From assembly GCF_027942865.1 (NCBI RefSeq), contig NC_134529.1, positions 26,782,760 through 26,846,759 on the forward strand: 64,000 bases of DNA, written 5' to 3'. The notes below the pieces were generated by a model. That model saw nothing but the letters and a program-made list of their open reading frames with translations, did not search any database and was not told the origin of the DNA. The stretch is from Odontesthes bonariensis. Taxonomy: Eukaryota > Chordata > Actinopteri > Atheriniformes > Atherinopsidae. Numbering within the stretch: the stretch's first letter is position 1; each line of letters starts with the position of its first letter. The translations under genes were made by a program, and so were the position numbers. Below are positions 13,401 to 16,400 of the stretch, piece by piece.

Positions 13401-16400
13401 TCCTTACGTAATGTATACCATATAGATATAACTTCCCTTCAGGGATTAATAAAGTGCCATTGAATCGAAGACAGACATTTCTATTTAAATTACTTCAAAT
13501 TTAACACATTGACTCCCAAGTCACGTAAAACTACGTTTTTACTGCCCATGCGTTGGCTCCCAAATGGTAAAAATACGTTTTTACGTTTTTTTTTAATGGA
13601 TTCTGAGTCTATACATTCTTCTGACACGCGACAAGTCTAAGGAGGCGGTCTTATGAACAGGTTAGCTTTGCAACATGCGACACGACGCAAATCCTCTGAC
13701 CCGGATATGTAAGTATCTAAAGTGCGACAGGCTGAAAGAGCGCACGTTTCACAAAAGCCCCGATATCTCAGTTTGTTGTTGATTTTGGTGGATACCCGCC
13801 TTGGTTTAGCTAAGGATAGCTCGCTAATGGCGGCACCTAGAGACACGCAGTTTTGACCCACAAAGAGTTTAAAGTCTCAGCTTTCAAACGAGCCATAACA
13901 TGTTTCAGTGGCCCTATCACATAATATGCTGTGACTGTACAAAAAATGGTTTAGAACGCTGGGATTCTACGACCTAATTCCGTAAACACCGCCGGTATTC
14001 AATGTGTTAAGAGGCCATTTTCTGCTTAGTGATACTGGAATGTCTTTGTAGCTTAATTCATCACATGTTGGACCAAGGTATGTGTGTAGGATTGCATAGC
14101 TCCACCTACAGCGGGTGAAATAAGTATTGAACAAGTCACCATTTTTCTCAGTAAATATATTTCTAGAGGTTCTATTGACATGAAATTTTCATCAGATGTC
14201 GGTAACAACCCAAGTAATCCATACATACAAAGAAACGAAAACAAATAAGTTCAGAAATTAAGTATTTGTAATAAAGTGAAATGACACAGGGAAAAAGTAT
14301 TGAACACGCTTACTGAAATTTATTTAATACTTTGTACAAAAGTCTTTGTTGGCAATGACAGCTTCAAGACACCGCCTGTATGGTGAAACTAGTTGTATGC
14401 ATTGCTCAGGTGTGATTTTGGCCCATTCTTCCACACAAACAGTCTTCAAATCTTGAAGGTTTTGTGGGCCTCTTCTATGAACTCTGATCTTTAGTTCTTT
14501 CCATAGATTTTCTATTGGATTCAAGTCAGGTGATTGGCTGGGCCAGCCTAGCAGCTTTATTTTCTTTCTCTGAAACCAATTGAGAGTTTCCTTGGCTGTG
14601 TGTTTGGGGTCATTGTCTTGCTGAAATGTCCACCTATGTTTCATCTTCATCATCCTGGTTAGGGGTGGGCGATATGGGCAAAAAAAAATATCTCGATATT
14701 TTTTAGGATTTTCACGATAAAGATATTTTGACGATATTTAAAAAAAAATTCAAACTTGCGTTAAGATCACAATAAAATGAACATAAGCATGCAAGTCTAA
14801 GCACACACGGCCGGTACAGTGAAACTGCGAATGGCTCATTAAATCAGTTTATGGTTCCTTTGATCGCTCTACCGTTACTTGGATAACTGTGGCAATTCTA
14901 GAGCTAATACATGCAAAACGAGCGCTGACCTTCGGGGATGCGTGCATTTATTAGACACAAAACCCATGCGGGGTGCCTCTCGGGGTGCCCCGGCCGCTTT
15001 GGTGACTGATAACCTCAAGCCGTTTCTCAGGCTACTTCTCCCTCCGGAGAGGGAGCCTGAGAAACGGCTACCACATCCAAGGAAGGCAGCAGGCGCGCAA
15101 ATTACCCACTCCCGACTCGGGGAGCCGGTAGTGACGAAAAATAACAATACAGGACACTTTAAATCCTTTAACAGGGATCAATTGAAGGGCAAGTCTGGCG
15201 CCAGCAGCCGCGGTAATTCCAGCTCCAATAGCGCATCTTAAAGTTGCTGCAGTTAAAAAGCTTGTTGTTGGATCTCGGGATCGAGCTGACGGTCCGCCGA
15301 GAGGCGAGCTGCCGTCTGTCCCAGCCCCGGCCTCTCGCTGTCCCAGCCCCGGCCTCTCGCTGTCCCAGCCCCGGCCTCTCGCTGTCCCAGCCCCGGCCTC
15401 TCGCTGTCCCAGCCCCGGCCTCTCGCTGTCCCAGCCCCGGCCTCTCGCTGTCCCAGCCCCTGCCTCTCGCTGTTCCAGCCCCGGCCTCTCGCTGTTCCAG
15501 CCCCGGCCTCTCGCTGTCCCAGCCCCTGCCTCTCTCTGTCCCAGCCCCGGCCTCTCGCTGTTCCAGCCCCAGCCTCTCGCTGCTCCAGCCCCAGCCTCTC
15601 GCTGCTCCAGCCCCGGCCTCTCGCTGCTCCAGCCCCGGCCTCTCGCTGTCCCAGCCCCGGCCTCTCGCTGTCCCAGCCCCGGCCTCTCGCTGTCCCAGCC
15701 CCGGCCTCTCGCTGTCCCAGCCCCGGCCTCTCGCTGTCCCAGCCCCGGCCTCTCGGCGCCCCCTCGATGCTCTTAGCTGAGTGTCCCGCGGGGTCCGAAG
15801 CGTTTACTTTGAAAAAATTAGAGCGTTCAAAGCAGGGCGTGGCGCCGTGGTAAGGGCAGAGGACCACTGGCGCCGCACTTTATTGATTTTTGGCGATTGA
15901 AAAAAAAAAAAAAAAAAAAAAAAAAAACTTTTTTTTTTTTTTTTTTTTTTTTGCCTATATCTCGATATTGCAAAATTACTCATCGTCAAAACAACATTCA
16001 CGATAATTTCGCAAACGATACATGTCGCCCACCCCTATTCCTGGTAGATGGCAGCAGATTTTTATCAAGAATGTCTCTGTACATTTTTCCATTCATCCTT
16101 CCTTCAATTATTTGAAGTTTGCCAGTACCATATGCTGAAAAACAGCCCCACGCCATGATGTTCCCACCTCCAAACTTCACTGTTGGTATGGTGTTTTTGG
16201 GGTGATGTGCAGTGCCATTTGACCTCCAAACATGATGTGTATTATGGCTTCCAAAGAGTTCAATTTTGGTGTCATCTGACCAGACTATATTCTCCCAGTA
16301 TTTCACAGGCTTGTCTAAATGTTGTGCAGCAAACTTTAAACGAGCTTCAACATGCTTTTTCTTCAGCAATGGAGTCTTGCGTGGTGAGCGTGCATACAGG

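Follow-up and report, generated by a model that had tools for sequence, protein, structure and literature searches.

How does part of a nuclear rRNA gene come to lie between the ends of a DNA transposon in a fish genome, and is this the accident of one locus or the property of a mobile family? The question is raised by an rDNA-bearing element of hAT type at positions 14660–16037 of a 64-kb stretch of Odontesthes bonariensis DNA (hereafter the window), which is part of contig C29 in a 945-Mb assembly. A first-pass annotation of the window had described hAT ends with an 8-bp target site duplication (TSD), a cargo of about 1 kb of 18S rDNA in sense orientation and an interrupted Tc1 transposase gene, and had proposed that such an element, if multicopy, would scatter rDNA through the genome. 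Our analysis indicates that the locus very probably belongs to a non-autonomous hAT family with an interior of host 18S rDNA (i.e. a Pack-hAT), which apparently arose by a single capture and spread to about 165 sites.

The boundaries of the window element can be placed exactly. On inspection of the window, its terminal inverted repeats (TIRs) agree at 13 of 13 positions, TAGGGGTGGGCGA starting at 14660 and the exact complement ending at 16037, and the TSDs on either side agree at 7 of 8, which upholds the hAT ends and the 8-bp duplication of the first description. A scan for exact 13-bp TIR pairs lying 200–3000 bp apart, with a TSD of at least 7/8, returned two elements in the window, this one and another at 6454–7730; the same scan returned none in 40 control windows simulated with a first-order Markov model. 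The element lies within a Tc1-type transposon, the transposase pieces of which match HTH_SB, HTH_Tnp_Tc3_2 and DDE_3 (Pfam). Once the element and one TSD are removed and the flanks joined, an uninterrupted transposase frame of 341 amino acids is recovered, running from Met with no stop. The gene was thus interrupted as reported, and the restored frame settles the boundaries of the insertion. Frames of at least 100 amino acids within the element map to the 18S parts and the array. Matches to miRNA and snoRNA families on the fold-back and the right end were all under gathering scores and were set aside. The features of the locus are collected in Table 1.

Table 1. Features of the rDNA-bearing element and its insertion site (window positions; nt, 18S numbering).
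Feature	Position	Strand	Evidence
Tc1-type transposon hosting the insertion, measured from TIR to TIR with the element included; 341-aa transposase frame interrupted	14107–17112	-	Pfam matches, restored frame
Left TSD, ATCCTGGT	14652–14659		TSD comparison
Left hAT end: TIR TAGGGGTGGGCGA and AT-rich subterminal/interior sequence to the 18S junction	14660–14788	+	Junction in 103/104 copies
18S block 1, ~nt 49–284	14789–15016	+	18S alignment
Fold-back: inverted 18S nt ~402–425 (15018–15041) facing the original (15046–15069), in place of nt ~285–398 (V2)	15017–15069	+	Junction 139 times in genome
18S block 2, ~nt 399–699, with a 31-nt deletion near 15154–15157; includes the 530-loop block	15043–15315	+	18S alignment
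Minisatellite, 20 x 22 bp; one 18S V4 unit (nt ~700–721) expanded	15316–15755	+	Array length differs among copies
18S block 3, ~nt 722–803, ending CAAAGCAGG	15756–15836	+	18S alignment
Right hAT interior (GCGTGGCGCCGTGG...), poly-A/poly-T tract (15900–15952), right subterminal sequence and TIR	15837–16037	+	Right subterminal sequence 163 times in genome
Right TSD, TTCCTGGT	16038–16045		TSD comparison

The cargo is recognised without reference to the transposon. When the whole window was searched, SSU_rRNA_eukarya was the sole Rfam family to reach its gathering score, with a match at 14757–15235 (247.5 bits, E 7.9e-71). Nucleotides are numbered here on a provisional teleost 18S reference. Alignment with real 18S genes from elsewhere among the eukaryotes (six loci) supports the numbering, as does, to nt ~398, a 5' piece of the host 18S; an 18S 3' pattern has no match in the assembly at up to 1 mismatch, so past nt ~398 the numbering is that of the provisional reference. 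The six non-fish loci came from a general 18S pattern and served solely as alignment references; counts of changes against their invariant columns proved too high, because variable regions were misaligned, and were discarded. Mapped in this way, the cargo extends from nt ~49 to nt ~803. The earlier account was right to place 18S sequence between the hAT ends, but not in its extent: outside the array the window copy has about 580 nt of 18S rather than a collinear 1 kb. The fold-back that takes the place of V2 is built around the palindrome TCCGGA, and 31 nt are absent from block 2. Collinear 18S content reaches 755 nt in the fullest copy in the genome (L099). A sense orientation, as first described, cannot meaningfully be assigned where the element has no gene. 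A vertebrate-type 18S pattern had no match in genome contigs, two 18S patterns had none in viral contigs, and a phage search was likewise without a match; the TIR 16-mer occurs at nine loci in viral contigs, by rough estimate about the level of chance.

With one copy known, the locus could have been a single chimera, or a misassembly joining rDNA to a hAT end, the array and the poly-A/poly-T tract being hard to assemble. Four family-specific patterns were searched in the whole assembly at up to 3 mismatches each, with the reversed patterns as controls. The fold-back junction was matched 139 times, the left interior at the 18S junction 166 times, and the left and right subterminal ends 165 and 163 times, respectively; the reversed controls gave 0 matches for all four. 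We place the family at about 165 copies on chromosomes, and the fold-back copies among the matches listed (part of the 139) are spread over 24 contigs. A search with the complete element gave 242 candidates, and 40 of the 40 that were scored match from the first base. The scattering of rDNA that had been foreseen is thus borne out, by many loci with both ends plus rDNA and not by one locus. Moreover, each of the 75 copies in which both ends are present terminates at hAT ends, and in 67 of these the TSD is perfect. A chimeric or misassembled locus is refuted by this number of TSD-bounded copies, and we give it next to no probability.

The duplications themselves were compared in detail. The 75 two-ended copies come from 96 read at length, and the TSDs agree at 8/8 in 67 and at 7/8 in 6; the two exceptions are L046 (4/8) and L096, in which 7 bp match but out of register. 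Both ends are present in 60 of the 72 fold-back copies, with TSDs of 8/8 in 55, 7/8 in 4 and 4/8 in 1, where ends were picked within ±1 base for the best TSD, a choice that slightly favours matches. Copies taken from the left-interior list gave 12 two-ended copies out of 20, with 11 at 8/8 and 1 at 7/8 without any choice of ends, and three of the four fullest copies are also two-ended (L099 at 8/8, L098 at 7/8 and L096 with its out-of-register match). The 60 two-ended fold-back copies have 60 different left TSDs. The duplications favour T as their second base (34 of 59, p 3.6e-6) and, less strongly, A as their seventh (25 of 59, p 0.018). The target preference of hAT elements is nTnnnnAn, and the superfamily has short TIRs of the C/TAGNG type. 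The 8-bp TSDs, the TIRs and the target preference all fit, and the family belongs to the hAT superfamily. A length of 539–1710 bp (60 copies), some 165 copies and the lack of a transposase gene are the traits of a non-autonomous, MITE-like family.

Structure was compared over 106 distinct copies: 72 with the fold-back (collapsed from 78 loci read), 20 of the at least 26 left-interior places absent among the fold-back matches listed, 4 with V2 intact, 8 of the 12 left-end places found in neither other list, and 2 of the roughly 10 right-end places of that kind. 18S sequence is present in all 106, including 30 of 30 copies chosen as absent from other lists (of about 48 such places). The left junction, at 18S nt 49, is common to 103 of 104 copies (up to 4 mismatches in 18), and the right junction, at nt 803, is found in 81 of the 96 loci longer than 1000 bases (up to 4 mismatches in 17); among the 15 loci without it are copies with internal deletions and others that extend past the fetched stretch. 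The fold-back is present in strict form in 87 of 104 copies and with indels in 3 more. Five copies retain V2, and four of these (L095, L096, L098 and L099) also have the 31 nt, which occur in no other copy, 8 short loci ending before that place. These figures bear on whether rDNA was captured several times independently, or was converted later into existing elements. rDNA converts readily, and 9 of the 104 copies have neither V2 nor a recognisable fold-back, as such a history would allow; the one left junction, the predominant right junction and the common fold-back nevertheless argue for one event, and recurrent capture or conversion is in our judgement very improbable.

A further possibility is that 18S RNA was retrotransposed in the manner of a SINE, with the A-tract at 15900 as its tail. 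There are indeed 28 A residues at 15900–15927, downstream of the 18S sequence. However, this tract lies inside the hAT ends, is followed by T residues and the hAT end, does not adjoin the 18S, unrelated sequence lying between the two, and includes (AT)n elsewhere in the family, and the 8-bp TSDs are found at the hAT ends. Retrotransposition is thereby refuted for the spread of the family and could apply only to its first step; taken as a whole we regard it as extremely improbable.

Returning to a single capture, the states of the copies suggest an order of capture, rearrangement and burst. A hAT element would once have gained 18S nt 49–803, the outcome of which can be seen in the copies, most likely by template switching in repair or replication. 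A derivative would then have lost nt ~285–398, with the fold-back at TCCGGA in their stead, together with the 31 nt; both states are found, and the order given is the one we infer. rDNA-bearing elements moved to the ~165 TSD-flanked sites now observed, one of them in the Tc1 gene of the window, and in several elements the V4 unit has grown to the tens of copies that they now carry. Among the 106 copies read there was neither an rDNA-free parent nor an autonomous element sharing these ends (TAGGGGTGGGCGATATGGGC ends), and the capture event is therefore not observed directly.

The 18S of the host itself is the probable donor: L108 equals the 5' piece of the host 18S over nt 49–278 (230 of 230 identical, in the same genome). 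The four copies with both V2 and the 31 nt differ from 18S nt 48/49–803 by 10–23 substitutions. L099 is 98.3% identical over nt 49–803 with a 1-nt gap, and the others have further indels: a 10-nt gap in L095, 44 extra nt in L098, and in L096 the absence of 69 nt together with two shorter gaps. Differences at nt 48 and 565 are common to all four and to the family consensus, and one at nt 291 to the four; these need not be decay and may instead go back to the junction, to the host sequence or to mistakes in the reference. With arrays collapsed, median divergence from the consensus among 50 copies that exceed 850 bp is 2.2% overall, 1.6% in the 18S and 1.2% in the left end, the right-end value of 3.65% being raised by simple repeats. 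Outside CpG the rate of change is 1.45% in the 18S versus 0.88% in the hAT ends, and at CpG sites it is 2.98% versus 4.05%; the evidence for constraint on the cargo is mixed and gives no clear sign of it. The window copy has five changes of its own against the other 49 copies (four substitutions and one inserted T, the array and homopolymer tract apart), few enough to indicate a recent insertion. Dating of its damage by the intact Tc1 frame was dropped, as most changes in the window copy are common to other copies.

The 22-bp array, whose origin in 18S V4 the first-pass annotation had missed, is itself rDNA. It repeats the V4 block CTGTCCCAGCCCC(T/G)GCCTCTCG, and its 440 bp stand where the 18S reference has a single block of matching sequence; a single block is also found in the family consensus, in most copies and in two database proteins, P0002 and P0007, that are antisense frames of 18S genes. 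The antisense frame of the array gave 152 protein matches; none of the 120 listed has an array, and those examined are antisense frames of 18S. Among the 60 two-ended fold-back copies a single unit is detectable in 31 and none in 9, and the remainder have 2–8 units, 14 (L020), 20 (the window copy) or 40 (L078). Arrays of about 1.8 kb in L019 and L021 are consistent with the genomic spans of these copies. In that measurement 9 copies yielded no length, and the values for L018, L025, L037 and L044 were discarded, since their anchors had matched elsewhere and the lengths conflicted with other readings of these loci. Growth would have been by slippage or unequal exchange, and probably took place more than once, since expanded copies are dispersed in a tree of 66 sequences (support values not considered). 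A second small repeat appears to be growing at the right 18S junction of L096, where the pentamer GTGGC stands 13 times compared with a few in other copies. Elsewhere in the window, at 50814–51252, there is a tandem array rich in GC, with periods of 26 bp and 42 bp, and with a unit unlike the one repeated in the 18S cargo.

18S genes form a multigene family, and the remaining 18S places in the assembly were compared with the elements. A V2 pattern occurs at 14 places, 4 in elements and 10 elsewhere. Four of these 10, those read (L097, L100, L101 and L102, on contigs C8, C34, C122 and C33), have a correct 18S start that breaks near nt 419 into unrelated sequence, which is about 95% alike between loci; they form a repeated truncated 18S. 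By the patterns used, copies of the family outnumber other 18S places, at ~165 versus 10 with V2 intact and 0 with the 3' pattern, and this could mislead work with 18S probes, estimates of rDNA copy number, barcoding and rRNA filtering.

Elements of this type have precedents. A survey of 100 animal genomes describes 370 Pack-TIRs, 208 of them hAT, and reports only four multicopy cases (1.4%), an example being hAT-N8_XT of the frog at three loci with three distinct TSDs (Tan et al., 2021; PMC8277862). The pipeline is described there as requiring a unique best parental hit, by which rDNA would tend to be set aside, and the whole words 'rRNA' and 'rDNA' are absent from the main text (PMC8277862). 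As in these animal elements, host sequence lies between hAT ends in the Odontesthes family; unlike them, as far as that account extends, it comprises some 165 copies with an rRNA cargo. Plant Pack-hATs are likewise non-autonomous hAT elements with captured host DNA, but in the account consulted the captures are of genes and in plants, whereas here they are of rDNA and in a fish; 'rRNA', 'rDNA' and 'ribosomal' are absent from that main text (PMC8903248). With Pokey, a piggyBac element of Daphnia, the family shares the tie of a DNA transposon to rDNA, although Pokey is reported to insert into rDNA, which in Odontesthes is the cargo. Targeting of rDNA sites of the Pokey or R element type was not found, given the different left TSDs and the spread over contigs described above, and the interior derives from host non-transposon sequence (18S nt 49–803), as in a Pack-hAT. 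No description of a hAT element with 18S cargo was found in searches of open-access PMC literature. The Pack-hAT type is known, and against that literature the rRNA cargo, the copy number and the failure to find an rDNA-free copy are apparently new.

The family represents a rarely seen kind of gene capture: sequence from a nuclear rRNA gene was made mobile by a hAT element and multiplied to ~165 dispersed copies with TSDs at their borders. Since some copies still contain almost all of the captured segment, it is a useful case for the origin of Pack-hATs, and also for how an rRNA expansion segment turns into a minisatellite. It raises the question of how silencing acts on a transposon when part of its sequence is shared with the rRNA of the host. 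Such a transposon could escape small-RNA silencing because the guides would also hit rRNA, or the cargo could instead profit the element through a nucleolar neighbourhood. The ~165 rDNA-bearing copies set against 0 rDNA-free copies among the 106 read are relevant here, yet we consider it unlikely that the 18S cargo aided the spread.

The window also offers a candidate for the motor of the family. The left end of the rDNA element is 72.8% identical over 81 bp to that of the element at 6454–7730 and 71% identical over 69 bp to an end at 40296, a likeness of sequence that makes a BED-type hAT transposase, supplied in trans and probably from a relative of the former element, the likely motor. The element at 6454–7730 has a perfect 8-bp TSD (GCTGCAGT), related ends and a BED-finger ORF (7075–7500, minus strand), and probably arose from a BED-type hAT by deletion. 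A 300-bp hAT-like MITE is found at 52428–52727, with a perfect TSD (ATGAATAT) and TAGGGGTG ends. Both elements resemble the rDNA element in their TAGGG ends and 8-bp TSDs, but neither has an Rfam SSU match, the only one in the window being that of the cargo. The hAT end at 40296, on the minus strand, resembles the left end of the rDNA element, and a second end was not found for it; an ORF nearby (39513–39827) is by eye like the start of a BED transposase, with no Pfam match. Remains of a hAT transposase, with the dimerisation domain of the C terminus and a DUF659 match under the cutoff, are present at 21313–23032 on the minus strand, and exons of a lamin-B receptor gene (LBR_tudor, ERG4_ERG24) lie at 10173–10655 and 34946–35593.
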